Both the position numbers and the translations under genes were made by a program. Source: a virus. Taken from it: a stretch of 44,653 nucleotides of DNA. Of this stretch, positions 3,808-8,846 are shown one piece after another (within the stretch, counting starts at the first letter, position 1; each line of letters starts with the position of its first letter). The stretch is from positions 1-44,653 of the IMG/VR virus record IMGVR_UViG_3300044713_000274; one strand, given 5' to 3'. A model generated the notes under the pieces. It saw only the letters and a list, made by a program, of their open reading frames with translations. It had not been told where the DNA came from and did not search any database.

Positions 3808-4308
3808 TCAGGAGTTAGTGGCGATATTTAAAATTGCCGCACACGACCAATGCCCCACCAATCCGTTTTCAACAGCCCAGATCGCCATCTGCACCGCATC
3901 GATCTCGTTCATCGGGTCCCCCGTAATACCGCTTTGTTGGCTAAAATCTGCCCAGGTTGGGTCTTGGAACTGCAAAATGCCTCTACTCATCAATCCGTTC
4001 GAATCTATCTCCTGAACGTCTTTATTGCGGCTCTCGCAAGCGATTAGGTAGGGAATGACTGAATAGGCCGTCTGGGCGGTTTCCGTCGCTCCTGGGTCAA
4101 TTTTGGGGCCGTAATAGGGTGGCCGCGAGCCGTATACCTCCGAGAGATGCTCGGCCTCGGCCAGAATGGACAGCTCGGGCATCAAAACGACGGCGGGAAG
4201 AAGATTCGGCGTTAAGGATGGTTGCCCTACTACCGCATAGACGCGGCTAGTAAAGAGGGTCGGAAGGAGGAATGAGAGAGTTACGAGGAGAAGGCAAAGT
4301 TTTTTCAA
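3808..4308 (-). CDS. Exported lytic transglycosylase-like endolysin
   Basis: 166 residues with a strong signal peptide (MKK, hydrophobic core, likely cleavage near RVYA). The C-terminal half (about 85-166) carries a lysozyme/SLT-like pattern: catalytic-type Glu in YLIACES, the GILQF segment typical of the active-site cleft, PTWADFS, and a terminal AIWAVENG...GHWSC segment. Family knowledge says such domains cleave the MurNAc-GlcNAc bond of peptidoglycan. A signal peptide suggests Sec export rather than release through a holin. It is the best candidate for the phage lysin. It is a little shorter than typical SLT enzymes. Confidence 0.75.
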   Translation of the reverse strand: MKKLCLLLVTLSFLLPTLFTSRVYAVVGQPSLTPNLLPAVVLMPELSILAEAEHLSEVYGSRPPYYGPKIDPGATETAQTAYSVIPYLIACESRNKDVQEIDSNGLMSRGILQFQDPTWADFSQQSGITGDPMNEIDAVQMAIWAVENGLVGHWSCAAILNIATNS

Positions 4309-4934
4309 ATGGTCGGCGGGTTCGGAGATTCATTGAGTGATGTGTGGTTTGCCGTCGAGGATTAGGCAGTACCAATCCGTAGTCTCCGTCCTCTAGACTT
4401 GCGGTAATGGATGCAAACCTATCTGCCGATATTACACATCATTCAAAGAACCTCGTACTATCCGCCCGCTCGATTATGAGCATCCCCGCAACAGCGGAGA
4501 GCTTTATGGTTTGCGACGTTTTCGGTAATTGGCTGAGAGCTGTGCGATAGGATTTTTTGGCGGCAAATTACGTTGCCGTCGCCCGCTGGCACAGAGGCCG
4601 CACCTACCCACGGGGATTATTCTTAGCGGCGCGTATGACGTTTAGCTCGTAATCTTCACGCCGAGCATCTGATTTTTATGGCTTGGAGCAAGGCCGCACA
4701 GCTTTCAGAGAACTACCTACTGATCCGGCAGCGGGCGTGAGAGTGCCGGAAAATTACGATGGATGAAGAGTTGCTGTTTTTACTTATTAAATTGTGTCGC
4801 GCCCGCCTATTAAGCATGCGACATTCCGGCGCGCATGCAAGGACAGTCTGGGGATAGCGAATTAGAAAGGCCCCGGAAATCATCGTTTTGGCATGGGATG
4901 ACGGGGGCCTTATAGGTGGGTCTATTGGGGAAGA
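4309..4934. other. Non-coding stretch with repeated 12-mers
   Basis: About 625 bp without a supported gene. It contains two more copies of the 12-mer seen at 1985-2172: CATTCAAAGAAC at 4440-4451 and CTTTCAGAGAAC at 4702-4713. It also has a small inverted repeat CCGGCA/TGCCGG near 4725-4752. A 32-codon plus-strand ORF from 4759 has no support. It separates the lysin gene from the zinc/membrane micro-operon and probably contains the promoter for the lysis genes. Confidence 0.5.
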
Positions 4935-5135
4935 TCAAGTGGCTTGTATCGAGTTTTCGCGGAGGTGGTTGAGAAGGAATTGGCCGTAACAGTCTTCCTT
5001 CGGGTTTTCGTGGTTGCGATGGAAGTAGTGGTAGGTATTCATGAATTTCATGCGAGCAAATTCCTGCCCGCTCTCGATCATCCTGTTGCACCAGCCACAA
5101 TTTTTGTCGTGCATGGTGTTGAAAAAGGTGCTCAT
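4935..5135 (-). CDS. Mini zinc-finger protein (CxxC..H..C), copy 1
   Basis: 66 residues. A CGWCNRMI knuckle is followed by YHYFHRNHENPKEDCYGQFL, giving a C-x2-C then His/Cys pattern like a small treble clef. The start was chosen because its ATG overlaps the stop of the upstream 38-residue gene in an ATGA junction, indicating translational coupling; the ORF is open further upstream. It shares the F-H..P..C-[FY]..[FW]-L ending with the protein at 5565-5711 and the CxxC-x3-I start with both other mini zinc proteins in this operon. Zinc binding is inferred from spacing. Function unknown. Confidence 0.7.
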   Translation of the reverse strand: MSTFFNTMHDKNCGWCNRMIESGQEFARMKFMNTYHYFHRNHENPKEDCYGQFLLNHLRENSIQAT

Positions 5136-5248
5136 GTCCGCCGCCAAATCTTCACGAGCAAGATGAGGCAAGCGACCGCGATCGCGAGCACGATGAAGTG
5201 GTAGGCCACGAACACGAAATGGTTCGGCCAGAAATTAATGTATTTCAC
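5132..5248 (-). CDS. 38-residue single-pass membrane protein
   Basis: Short gene with a GTG start preceded by GGAAGGTGA. The product is nearly all one membrane helix (residues about 10-32, HFVFVAYHFIVLAIAVACLI) ending in a positively charged KIWRRT tail, which predicts the C terminus on the cytoplasmic side. Its start overlaps the end of the upstream exported-protein gene by 14 bp. Its stop overlaps the next start by 4 bp (ATGA), so it lies in a translationally coupled chain. It is small enough to be a holin-like or regulatory microprotein. No family recognised. Confidence 0.6.
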   Translation of the reverse strand: MKYINFWPNHFVFVAYHFIVLAIAVACLILLVKIWRRT

Positions 5249-5552
5249 GGCTCACCTTCCGTTTCATGCCGGAGCTCGGCAATGTAGCGACGAGAGCATG
5301 GATCTCGTCGTATTTTTTTAGGTCTACGATTCCGTGCAATTCGTCGTCGTAGGTCTGGTTGATGAGCTGTTGGATGTGCAGGCGGACGTGGAGCGAGTCC
5401 TGCTCGTCCTTCGAGACGTTCGTGAAGTGGTAGAACGGCACGCTCTGGTTGGCCCAGACGACGCCGGATTTTTTCTCTTGGCCACGAAGGACCGAGAGAG
5501 AACACAAGGCAAGCAACGCACAGCAAAAGACGATCAATTTCTTCGATATCAT
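5235..5552 (-). CDS. Small exported hypothetical protein
   Basis: 105 residues with a signal peptide (MISKK, then a hydrophobic FCCALLALCSLSVL core, cleavage likely near LRG-QE). The mature part is hydrophilic and helical, with VSKDEQDSLHVRLHIQQLIN typical of an alpha-helical segment. An excellent Shine-Dalgarno AAGGAGGT lies 7 bases before the ATG and directly follows the stop of the upstream mini zinc-finger gene. Sits inside the micro-operon 4935-6762. A spanin or periplasmic lysis role is possible but unsupported by motif. Confidence 0.7.
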   Translation of the reverse strand: MISKKLIVFCCALLALCSLSVLRGQEKKSGVVWANQSVPFYHFTNVSKDEQDSLHVRLHIQQLINQTYDDELHGIVDLKKYDEIHALVATLPSSGMKRKVSREIH

Positions 5553-5564
5553 CCTTTTACCTCC

Positions 5565-5711
5565 TTACTTTTTGGGTTTGGCGGCGATTTTCAGTTGCCG
5601 TTGAAGCCATTCGTAGAAACAGGGCTGTTCGGGAGAGTTGTGGAAGTGAGCGTTGGGGAAGGGAGTCTCGTGCGAGCCGGTGATCCCCTGCCCGCAGGAT
5701 TTGCAGATCAT
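5565..5711 (-). CDS. Mini zinc-finger protein (CxxC..H..C), copy 2
   Basis: 48 residues: MICKSCGQGI then AHFHNSPEQPCFYEWL and a basic tail (KIAAKPKK). The ATG is set by a strong AAAGGAGG four bases upstream; the ORF is open further upstream but without a ribosome site. C-x2-C plus H-x-H...C suggests one structural zinc. The ending aligns with the 4935-5135 protein (FH...P...C[FY]). Lies between two membrane or exported microprotein genes in the same transcript. Function unknown; nucleic acid or protein binding are both plausible. Confidence 0.7.
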   Translation of the reverse strand: MICKSCGQGITGSHETPFPNAHFHNSPEQPCFYEWLQRQLKIAAKPKK

Positions 5712-5721
5712 GTGCCTCCTT

Positions 5722-5889
5722 TCATTGGCAGTAATGGCGGTGCACTTCGATCGTGATTGCGATCCGGCCGTCATGCGCCGCGCGGATGAAGTAGATGAGC
5801 TGGATGATGTCCATCAACAAGAACAGAAACATGAGGAGCTTTGCTGATGGGAGATAAGGACTCAGAAAGCCATTGAGGCGGCGCATCAT
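5722..5889 (-). CDS. Small single-pass membrane protein
   Basis: About 55 residues with one hydrophobic helix (LLMFLFLLMDIIQLIYFI) flanked by a basic N terminus (MMRRLNG) and a His/Arg-rich C terminus. Two consecutive ATG codons overlap the TGA stop of the upstream gene, and GAGG lies just before them, so translation is coupled. The size and topology fit a class III holin or a small regulatory membrane peptide. No family recognised. The gene lies between two mini zinc-finger genes. Confidence 0.6.
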   Translation of the reverse strand: MMRRLNGFLSPYLPSAKLLMFLFLLMDIIQLIYFIRAAHDGRIAITIEVHRHYCQ

Positions 5890-6059
5890 GGTTCCTCGGC
5901 AATCGAAAAGAGAAATTGGATGTAGCATTTCGTGTGCAGGAAGATGGTTCCCCACTCCCATACGAAATCGCGCCAGATGATGTGGCCGCGCATTTCGACA
6001 TAGGAGGAGTCACCTTTCAGAATGGCCCGGTGACAGTGATGACACTTCCGTTCAGGCAT
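5886..6059 (-). CDS. Mini zinc-finger protein (CxxC..HxxC), copy 3
   Basis: 57 residues. CHHCHRAILKGDS is followed about 25 residues later by WGTIFLHTKCYIQF, giving C-x2-C...H-x2-C, the spacing of a PARP-type or related treble-clef finger (aromatic-x-H-x-x-C). The ATG overlaps the stop of the DUF932 gene in an 8-bp ATGCCTGA junction. Its own stop overlaps the start of the next membrane microprotein. It is the first of three related mini zinc proteins in this operon. Zinc binding is inferred; function unknown. Confidence 0.7.
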   Translation of the reverse strand: MPERKCHHCHRAILKGDSSYVEMRGHIIWRDFVWEWGTIFLHTKCYIQFLFSIAEEP

Positions 6060-6762
6060 TGAAGAATGCCCCGAGGGAAGCGGTCGCTTTGTACTGCGGG
6101 ATGGGATCGAGTTGTTTGAACGCGGACGTGAAGCCGTTGTGTAGGCTCCATTTCGTTCGCGGCGCGAACTCTTGCATCATCGGGTCGAAGTAGAACTGAT
6201 GGACCTGGCGCGCCAAGTGTTTCGGCGCGTCGAGGGTGTCTTCGATGAAGGCGCGGTAAATGATGAGCCGCGCTTGTTCGTCCGTGATGCGGGATTCCTG
6301 CCATTGATCGATCTGATCGGTCATCGGCTTGAAGCTCCGTTGCATCTGATCGATGCCGACCGCGAGGGAATCCTTCAGGTTGAAATGCTTGCTGTGTTTT
6401 GCGAGCAACGGCGTGAAATCGCCATAGAACGCGAGGTTCGAGCAAATGAGCACCCGAAACCCCACGGTCATCGCGAGGCGCATGGATTTGTCGTTCGCGT
6501 TGCGGACGCCGAGAAGGAACCGGACGCCGGTTGAAACGGTTTCGAGTTCGACGACGCCGAAGAATTTCATGCCGTCGTGCGAAACCGCGTACTCGTCTTT
6601 GACGACACTGATGTGCCGGTACGAGAGCGATTCGACGATCGAGTTAACGACTTCAATGTGCGGGATTGGTTTCCACGACTCCGTGCCTTGCGGGGTTGGA
6701 ATCGTGGCAAGCTCTTCACGGGTAAGCGTTTGAGCGTTACGGTCTGCGAGTAAACCATTCAT
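6052..6762 (-). CDS. DUF932 phage/plasmid protein
   Basis: 236 residues resembling the DUF932 family of phage- and plasmid-borne proteins: an N-terminal segment with YAVSHDGMKFFGVVEL, then LGVRNANDKSMRLAMTVGFRVLICSNLAF and a helical C-terminal half. The biochemical role of the family is not established. A strong AAAAGGAG lies 6 bases before the ATG. It heads the chain of coupled microgenes and ends in an 8-bp overlap with the first mini zinc protein. DUF932 genes are more often found with early genes; here it lies between tail/lysis genes. Confidence 0.8.
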   Translation of the reverse strand: MNGLLADRNAQTLTREELATIPTPQGTESWKPIPHIEVVNSIVESLSYRHISVVKDEYAVSHDGMKFFGVVELETVSTGVRFLLGVRNANDKSMRLAMTVGFRVLICSNLAFYGDFTPLLAKHSKHFNLKDSLAVGIDQMQRSFKPMTDQIDQWQESRITDEQARLIIYRAFIEDTLDAPKHLARQVHQFYFDPMMQEFAPRTKWSLHNGFTSAFKQLDPIPQYKATASLGAFFNA

Positions 6763-7038: not shown

Positions 7039-7980
7039 TTAGAGTTCTTTTTGGATTAAGGCGATGGCCGCCTCGATATCGGTGAGGATTTGCTGAATGA
7101 GTGCAGGTTTGGTTTCCGGGGGGACGGCGGGATTTTGGATGACGGCGGAAACGCTCGGAGGAATTGCTTTGAAGGCGATGCCGGATTTTATGAACGGGGC
7201 GTAGTTCCAGCCGAAATATCCAAAACCGTTTTGCGCCCATTGCGGCGAGGAAGAGTTAATAAACCACGTCCGGTCGTTCGGTTCGTCGTAAGGGGCGACG
7301 AGGACAAAGTGACTATCAATCACTTTCGCGGGCGGCCGGATCGGAAGGATCTCGGCCGCGTCCCACGTCTCTTCTCCCGAAGTGGACGTGTACCATTCGT
7401 TTCCAAGCTGGAGTTCCAAAATGACGGCGCTGTTTTCAAAACATGCTTGGTGTATTCCCTCTATCGAAAGGTCGTCGAGAAGAAATGGACTGCCGAGAAG
7501 GCGCGTTACGGCGTCCGTAATTGCTTGGGGGGTGGCGTCGGCCCACGGTGAGATTTTTTCGCCGGTGGGATTTAATGCGGGGTCGCCGTCGTCTGGGAAA
7601 AGAGTCTTGAGGCATGACGCCACTCTGCTTCCCGCAAGACCGATCGCGGAAATAGTCGTTCCGTCGTCGTGTGGATACCCGTCCACGGTTTTTTCATACG
7701 CATAGCTGAAACTGCCGGAGAGCTCGGTCGGAGCTGCGCCTTTCTTGAGGACTGCGATGAAATTGACGAGCTGCGCGAGGGAAAATCCGCCGCACTCGGG
7801 ACTGAATGACTGCATAAGCGCGGTGAGTCTGAAGAACGGCCCGGCCGGGTCGAGGAGATATTGCGAAGAACGAACGGGAGGGATTGAGGCGCGAACCAAA
7901 CTGAGCGGATGCAGTTTGGGATTTTCTTCGTGGGTGACGCCGAGGGTCTTTCCTACTTTATGGGGATGTGCAAAATCCAT
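7039..7980 (-). CDS. Papain-like (C1-type) cysteine peptidase-like protein
   Basis: 313 residues. A Q-x5-C pattern in MQSFSPECGGFSLAQ (about residues 57-71) matches the oxyanion-hole Gln and nucleophilic Cys of papain enzymes. DSHFVLVAP (about 222-231) supplies the likely His, and FINSSSPQWAQNGFGYF the Asn/Trp region that in papain precedes the GENGY turn. There is no signal peptide. It lies between fibre genes and the holin-sized gene, so it could cut cell-wall peptides, process virion proteins or disable a host surface protein. The catalytic residues are read from the sequence; the substrate is unknown. Confidence 0.65.
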   Translation of the reverse strand: MDFAHPHKVGKTLGVTHEENPKLHPLSLVRASIPPVRSSQYLLDPAGPFFRLTALMQSFSPECGGFSLAQLVNFIAVLKKGAAPTELSGSFSYAYEKTVDGYPHDDGTTISAIGLAGSRVASCLKTLFPDDGDPALNPTGEKISPWADATPQAITDAVTRLLGSPFLLDDLSIEGIHQACFENSAVILELQLGNEWYTSTSGEETWDAAEILPIRPPAKVIDSHFVLVAPYDEPNDRTWFINSSSPQWAQNGFGYFGWNYAPFIKSGIAFKAIPPSVSAVIQNPAVPPETKPALIQQILTDIEAAIALIQKEL

Positions 7981-8078
7981 GTTTTCATTGTGGGATATCT
8001 ATGGAATCTGTCGAGGGGTCGGGTGTGTATAACGTTGACGCTATTGCAGAGTAGACGTGAAGATACTAGTATGCCGCC

Positions 8079-8846
8079 ATGCCCTTCGAGCTTAAAGACG
8101 GAATTACCCTGTCCATCAGTTTGGCGGCTTTTGGTCTCTCGTCGCTCTCATTTTTTCAAAAGAGAGCGGAAAGCATTCAAAATTTGCGAAAGCGATTAAC
8201 TGAAATTTTGAAGGAACTATCTGAGTTGACGCTAAAAGATGCGACCTTTCGAAGCTTGCAGAATAAAGATAGCTATCCACCCAATTATGTTGGCTTGCTA
8301 TCTGACCAACGTCGTTTTTTCGTTCGCGAGGCGGCAACACTTGCAGAAACCGCGGGAATAGATGTTAGTGCCCACGAAAAAAATTTAATTGCGATGACGT
8401 TCGATAGCATTGACTTTGCGGAAGACGCCGAGCACTTCTTCAAGAGTGCGACAGAGGGCGATAGTTCTCAGATCGACCGGGGGCTTTCGTGGCGCAATTA
8501 TGGACGCTTTCTCTATCAGCAAGGATCGTTTGACGAAGGTGCGAAGGCTTTTGAAAACGCGATCGAGGCATTCACGACTGATGACGAGAGAAGTCGCTAT
8601 TACCGCGTAACGACCTATACTCGCTGGGCCGAGGCAACGAAAGCAACAACCGGCAACTGGGCCGCCAGGAAGCAAGGGCGAATGTTGATCATGAAAGCAT
8701 GGAACGAAGCGTTTGATTTAAGACCATTTCGGCGACGAGAAAACGAATTGGCTCGCATTGGGGAGCTTGCCGCTTCCTATGGACTGCCGGTTCCAGAGAA
8801 TCAGCGGTTCAAAGAGGATGAGTTCAAGACGGACACTAAGAGATGA
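8079..8846 (+). CDS. Membrane-anchored TPR-like protein (cargo gene)
   Basis: 255 residues. An N-terminal hydrophobic stretch (LSISLAAFGLSSLSFF) is followed by a coiled coil and a helical repeat region. WRNYGRFLYQQGSFDEGAKAFENAIEAF (about 147-174) is a clear tetratricopeptide motif. It is antisense to the surrounding phage operon and diverges from the peptidase gene with a 98-bp gap that contains a TATAAC box at 8028-8033. No Shine-Dalgarno is visible, and an out-of-frame ATG lies 8 bases upstream. The 3' end is 42 bp from the convergent XhlA-like gene. Likely a moron expressed independently; function unknown. Confidence 0.7.
   Translation: MPFELKDGITLSISLAAFGLSSLSFFQKRAESIQNLRKRLTEILKELSELTLKDATFRSLQNKDSYPPNYVGLLSDQRRFFVREAATLAETAGIDVSAHEKNLIAMTFDSIDFAEDAEHFFKSATEGDSSQIDRGLSWRNYGRFLYQQGSFDEGAKAFENAIEAFTTDDERSRYYRVTTYTRWAEATKATTGNWAARKQGRMLIMKAWNEAFDLRPFRRRENELARIGELAASYGLPVPENQRFKEDEFKTDTKR

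Follow-up and report, generated by a model that had tools for sequence, protein, structure and literature searches.

A DUF932-anchored cargo slot with putative zinc microproteins in a temperate phage linked to Acidobacteriota

Six very small open reading frames follow a DUF932 gene in the virus record IMGVR_UViG_3300044713_000274, which raises the question of whether they form a functional unit and what such a unit would do. The whole 44,653-nucleotide stretch of this record was analyzed and is referred to here as the window. The original prediction, made from the sequence, described the six as a coupled operon in which miniature zinc-finger proteins alternate with tiny membrane or exported proteins, with a proposed connection to the envelope or host takeover.

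The window carries an integrase gene at its left end, followed by terminase, portal, head, and tail genes on the minus strand, and is an uncultivated temperate tailed phage. Its DNA had no match in the phage database; at the protein level, a viral contig search found DUF932 relatives with 40-69% identity in 24 viral contigs, whose loci are numbered below with the prefix L. Relatives also occur in 11 bacterial contigs, all 11 of which belong to Acidobacteriota. Since DUF932 relatives are found in this phylum, we infer an acidobacterial host, which, judging from the same relatives, is probably a member of the family Acidobacteriaceae. In the family of one relative-bearing Acidobacterium MAG, DUF932 matches are present in 55 of 398 genomes. 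Single genomes of this set have up to 8 matches, and many of the copies are truncated, a pattern suggestive of numerous integrated or decayed elements.

Layout and coding signals of the operon

The six genes lie on the minus strand in the sizes and order first described (Table 1). The overlaps of 4-14 bp said to prevail are found at four of the six junctions, namely DUF932/Z1 (8 nt), Z1/M1 (4 nt, ATGA), X/M2 (14 nt), and M2/Z3 (4 nt), whereas gaps of 10 nt (M1-Z2) and 12 nt (Z2-X) separate the genes at the other two; strong AGGAGG sites precede both gapped genes, Z2 and X. With a codon usage model built from the window's own larger genes, M1, Z2, X, M2, and Z3 score 0.22, 0.21, 0.27, 0.32, and 0.23 bits per codon, respectively, and each value exceeds the 95th percentile for spurious ORFs (0.12). 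Codon usage thus supports five of the six as real genes. Z1, with a score of -0.08 and without an SD site, is possibly not a gene, its call depending solely on the exact tiling (the 8-nt and ATGA overlaps) and on its CxxC...HxxC residues. The candidate zinc ligands are C6-C9-H42-C45 in Z1, C3-C6-H24-C31 in Z2, and C13-C16-H39-C49 in Z3.

Table 1. Features of the DUF932-linked operon and its flanks (positions in the window).
Feature	Position	Strand	Description
313 aa gene, function not assigned by families	7039-7980	-	conserved upstream neighbour of DUF932
Small membrane gene	7015-6860		on far side of operon from lysozyme-like gene
DUF932 gene	6052-6762	-	236 aa; conserved anchor upstream of cargo slot
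Z1	6059-5886	-	57 aa, CxxC-x32-HxxC putative zinc microprotein; weakest call of the six
M1	5889-5722	-	55 aa, one predicted transmembrane segment; hydropathy 2.4
Z2	5711-5565	-	48 aa, zinc microprotein (motif-based) with family signature FHN-x5-C; AGGAGG SD
X	5552-5235	-	105 aa, N-terminal hydrophobic segment/signal peptide and ~80-residue predicted exported domain; AGGAGG SD
M2	5248-5132	-	38 aa, GTG start inside end of X; single transmembrane segment (predicted); hydropathy 3.1
Z3	5135-4935	-	66 aa, predicted treble-clef zinc microprotein; last in operon
Terminator-like hairpin	4867-4911	-	-20 kcal/mol, z -3.25, U-rich tail
Lysozyme/transglycosylase-like gene	3808-4308	-	166 aa; downstream slot boundary

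Because a hairpin with a U-rich tail follows Z3, this gene is probably the last of the operon, and a terminator closing the operon is predicted at this point; the z-score of the hairpin derives from 200 shuffles, and a short-loop scan missed the same structure. In a related locus (L010), a GC-rich hairpin followed by TTTTT lies directly 3' of the zinc gene. The overlaps, the short gaps, and the hairpin after Z3 bear out the view of one tightly packed unit behind DUF932.

The alternation of zinc and membrane genes fared less well. The genes actually run Z M Z X M Z, and among the 20 possible arrangements of three zinc and three other genes, 4 have no two zinc genes side by side, a 20% chance; alternation was hence rejected as a meaningful signal. 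It is not a conserved unit either, since the membrane genes do not recur in order. Membrane or exported ORFs are sporadic in the slots of related phages (L004, L022, L023, L024, and L029) and differ in order, the membrane gene preceding the zinc gene in L004 and an exported one following it in L022. Thus, from the proposed DUF932-zinc-membrane order, DUF932 followed by a zinc microprotein is the arrangement that is conserved.

A variable slot and a recurrent zinc family in related phages

The DUF932 gene passes the PF06067 gathering cut-off in Pfam (25.5 bits against 23, E=1.4e-5), and its structure model is good (pLDDT 84), with no structural relative in the PDB. A homologue of the 313 aa gene, which has no Pfam match and no significant PHROG match, lies upstream of DUF932 in 17 of the 24 viral loci. 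Downstream of the slot, homologues of the lysozyme-like gene are present in 15 of the 24; the lytic fold of this gene is a by-eye reading of E-S...S-x-G-x-L-Q, and a Pfam search gave no match. In Salinibacter phage M8CRM-1 (L047), a distant DUF932 homologue stands beside a phage-type endonuclease, an SSB, and an ERF annealing protein, a neighbourhood that hints at a role for DUF932 in DNA recombination.

In the 24 related phage contigs, DUF932 is followed by a variable cargo slot whose content changes from one phage to the next. HTH_8 (Fis-type) proteins of 119-123 aa, which end in a C-terminal CPNC...C zinc-ribbon-like tail, follow DUF932 directly in L010, L011, L014, L020-L022, and L025, and L005, L006, and L007 have related HTH ORFs immediately upstream of DUF932. 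Furthermore, an HNH-like protein of 65-70 aa with the pattern HHRKP(K/R)S(L/I)GG...N...KH.AWH.LF is found after DUF932 in 13 loci (L005, L007-L011, L014, L019-L022, L025, and L026, of which L020 is truncated and L026 is a provirus). This protein is without the usual zinc cysteines and matches Pfam HNH weakly (E 0.07), its nearest counterparts in phages being homing endonucleases. A BglII-type restriction endonuclease with a convergent MT-A70-type methylase lies ~0.5-2.2 kb after DUF932 in L005, L014, and L021, and other DNA methylases lie within ~2.7 kb in L002, L003, L004, L015, L017, and L019. A single cargo-slot ORF in L007 (L007:7126-8061, minus strand) encodes an FRG domain and, after it, a SET domain.

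Of the original prediction, the part on zinc miniproteins stands, in that such proteins recur behind DUF932 in related phages. Miniproteins of 61-73 aa with the pattern CxxC...(F/Y)H(N/R)...C occupy the slot in 11 of the 24 viral loci; the form CxxC...(F/Y)HN-x5-C is carried by L008, L010, L011, L013, L014 (two copies), L016, L019, L021, L022, and L025, and L004 holds a looser member. Their genes nearly always have a good ribosome-binding site. The family is absent from Pfam, PHROGs, and NCBIfam and had no match in the phage database. Among unsaturated pairs, dN/dS is 0.15-0.38 (0.26 for the closest pair, L021/L022), values that point to purifying selection on the relatives' family.

The motif is closely tied to this position. 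The pattern [FY]HN.{5}C has 13 matches in 9170 six-frame ORFs of all loci, and all 13 are zinc ORFs behind DUF932; these include the provirus L026 and Z2 of the window, the latter having been left out of the alignment from which the pattern was drawn. A looser pattern, picked after Z3 and the L004 protein had been seen, adds exactly those two. Motif-bearing ORFs number 20 of 672 downstream compared with 42 of 7910 elsewhere (Fisher P 2e-8). Additionally, a degenerate DNA pattern for FHNR...DCLA has four matches in 2.9 million viral contigs, all four in DUF932 phages among the known relatives. In the chromosomal control, the family is present at 1 of 30 DUF932 loci with 55-63% identity, and the exception is a provirus; 2 of the 29 family-negative loci have <800 nt downstream. 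Given its presence at 11 of 24 viral and 1 of 30 chromosomal loci, the family is tied to the phage lineage and not to DUF932 generally, and DUF932 alone was ruled out as the reason for the zinc genes. Besides the provirus, 2 of 347 genomes of the order carry chromosomal homologues of the phage zinc family (L040:8197-8409 and L041 ~7991-8161; E 4e-21 and 1e-13), both adjoining ruvB in a by-eye reading.

Membership and predicted fold of Z1, Z2, and Z3

Like the family members, Z1, Z2, and Z3 lie downstream of a phage DUF932 gene on the same strand. The strict signature, CxxC followed by [FY]HN-x5-C, is present in Z2, whose FHNSPEQPC resembles FHNTLEKPC of L021, and absent from Z1, Z3, and the L004 protein. 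The last two carry a looser form, FHR with longer spacing, and are clear homologues: the L004 protein lies at the same place as Z3, shares 40% identity with it (tblastn 1e-5), and keeps the cysteines and the histidine. Alignment to the family with hhalign gave P 1.6e-4 for Z3 plus the L004 protein, 1e-3 for Z2, and 1.3e-3 for Z1; shuffles that kept C and H reached the single-sequence score in 1/100 cases for Z1, 1/100 for Z2, and 9/100 for Z3, and by itself this profile similarity is suggestive only, not significant beyond the C/H positions. On motif and position, Z2 is accepted as a family member and Z3 with less certainty, while Z1 is left unassigned; the window would thus hold two, possibly three, zinc microproteins of the family.

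Close relatives of the window proteins themselves were not found in 2.9 million viral contigs for the five scanned (Z1, M1, Z2, X, and Z3), and the L004 zinc protein, used as a query there, matched itself only. The signal of selection, for which dN/dS near 1 was to be the counter-evidence, belongs to the relatives' zinc family. Searches of all six small proteins against Pfam, PHROGs, and PADLOC were negative, those of Z1-Z3 against Pfam even at E up to 10, and the three zinc proteins have no significant match in NCBIfam, where the best for Z1 is ribosomal L24e (E=0.032, not significant).

The AlphaFold model of Z3 (pLDDT 84, core ~92) contains strands at 26-31 and 34-39 and a helix at 49-65, in which a knuckle at C13/C16 is followed by a hairpin (26-39) ending at H39 and a helix starting from C49. 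Foldseek searches with this model returned E-values that were all >1, and the fold class was therefore read from the topology, which is predicted to be a treble clef of knuckle, hairpin, and C-terminal helix. The top of the Foldseek list is mostly ribosomal chains with TM ~0.45-0.5, which, judged from length and chain, are most likely eL24, and L24e also appears among the family profile-search matches (E 0.12-0.26). The likeness of Z3 and Z1 to eL24 is read as fold similarity and not as membership. In the family microproteins, zinc is predicted to be held by the CCHC residues.

Possible roles of the operon and known counterparts

On balance, we regard the operon as plausibly, with about even confidence, the moron-type cargo end of a late operon in a temperate Acidobacteriota-linked phage, combining treble-clef zinc adaptors with phage-specific membrane and exported microproteins. 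Moron-type cargo is suggested by the place in the late operon, by the varying content, and by the DNA-facing genes nearby in relatives (HTH_8, HNH-like, BglII, and DNA methylases). In the proposed mechanism, DUF932 would be the conserved anchor of a slot that reaches to the lytic gene and that each relative fills differently; in this phage it would hold two, possibly three, treble-clef zinc microproteins mixed with three membrane or exported ones. The zinc microproteins would most likely be cytoplasmic single-domain adaptors, in which the CCHC site may hold the beta hairpin against the C-terminal helix and the helix may contact nucleic acid or a protein of the host or the phage; one treble clef carrying a short helix most likely serves to bind nucleic acid or protein. 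Expressed late or in the lysogen, these adaptors could change transcription in the host, the handling of DNA, or defence. M1, X, and M2 look like membrane or exported proteins, and the envelope would be their most likely place of action, with superinfection exclusion or the tuning of lysis as tasks; M1 and X have no relatives in viral contigs, slot membrane genes are not kept in order, and these tiny proteins appear specific to the window phage. The operon may be connected with the envelope or with host takeover.

A lysis-control cassette, in which X, M1, and M2 would be holin-, antiholin-, or spanin-like and the zinc proteins regulators, comes to mind because the operon sits between the small membrane gene and the lysozyme-like gene, a lytic gene being near in the relatives as well. 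A single strong transmembrane segment in M1 and in M2, and one at the N-terminus of X, would suit such a cassette. It is nonetheless unlikely, as the lytic gene lies ~630 nt past the operon end, behind the terminator-like hairpin, and comparable slot membrane genes are missing in most relatives. Moreover, X has no lipobox cysteine context and no relatives in viral contigs, the PDB, Pfam, or PHROGs, and for M1, X, and M2 the holin and spanin families gave no match in Pfam and no significant one in PHROGs. Since the operon is near a lytic gene, its membrane genes may still contribute to lysis.

The zinc microproteins might instead be counter-defence or DNA-modification accessories, which would fit the restriction-modification and HNH-like genes of the relatives' slots, with BglII and MT-A70 in three loci and other methylases in six more. 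This is also improbable: PADLOC finds nothing in the window cassette, its slot is without a methylase or nuclease, and a common slot does not prove a common task. Least credible is the view that a recombination hotspot has left most of the small ORFs behind as drifting coding remnants without a function, for although the scanned window proteins have no close viral-contig relatives and Z1 has no codon bias, five ORFs have phage-like codon usage, two strong SD sites, precise overlaps, and a terminator-like hairpin are present, purifying selection acts on the zinc family of the relatives, and Z3 is kept in L004 with its cysteines and histidine.

The moron-type reading can be extended, speculatively and with low confidence, to an operon that temperate Acidobacteriota phages devote to host control or counter-defence and that is made up of the treble-clef family, DUF932, the zinc-tailed HTH_8 regulator, and the HNH-like miniprotein; the window variant would then have swapped its DNA-facing partners for extra zinc and membrane or exported microproteins that link envelope and cytoplasm. 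More broadly, a whole phage lineage can conserve, under selection and at a fixed site, tiny zinc-finger genes that the family libraries miss. Acidobacteriota are among the commonest but least studied soil phyla, and the DUF932 anchor offers an address for finding proteins with which phages control their host; should the family bind a host factor, it would open a way into host manipulation by Acidobacteriota phages.

Several known systems resemble parts of this arrangement. The treble clefs of eL24 (L24e), TRASH, and LIM share the C-x2-C knuckle, the beta hairpin, and an aromatic residue with a second ligand pair at the helix start. The zinc ligands of eL24 are CCCC, whereas the window and relatives' family is non-ribosomal and CCHC with H-x6-C (H-x7 in L004, H-x9 in Z3), and the scores to eL24 are not significant. 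A PARP-type finger, as originally proposed for Z1, has the same C-x2-C...H-x2-C order, but the spacing in Z1 is longer (C-x2-C-x32-H-x2-C), Z2 has H-x6-C and Z3 H-x9-C instead of H-x2-C, and it was ruled out, with no zf-PARP or other Pfam match for Z1 up to E 10. YdaE of the Rac prophage (NF041288), likewise a small prophage protein, is the best NCBIfam match of Z3 (E 0.041), with 14 bits against a cut-off of 35 and only 23 residues covered.

To our knowledge, no DUF932 anchor stands beside the CxxC microproteins of haloviruses. The haloviruses of the HF1 group and haloarchaea encode many small CxxC zinc-finger proteins of <100 aa, whose functions are mostly not assigned and which are proposed to regulate or bind other molecules (PMC7230728). 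The HF1 group thus resembles the window in having many small CxxC proteins in a tailed virus (PMC7230728), a likeness of description; these are archaeal viruses, unlike the window phage. A parallel in organization is offered by phage moron or accessory slots beside lysis and integration genes, which similarly hold variable cargo at a fixed site, including restriction-modification genes in the relatives; here, microproteins make up most of the cargo, and one zinc family among them is recurrent.
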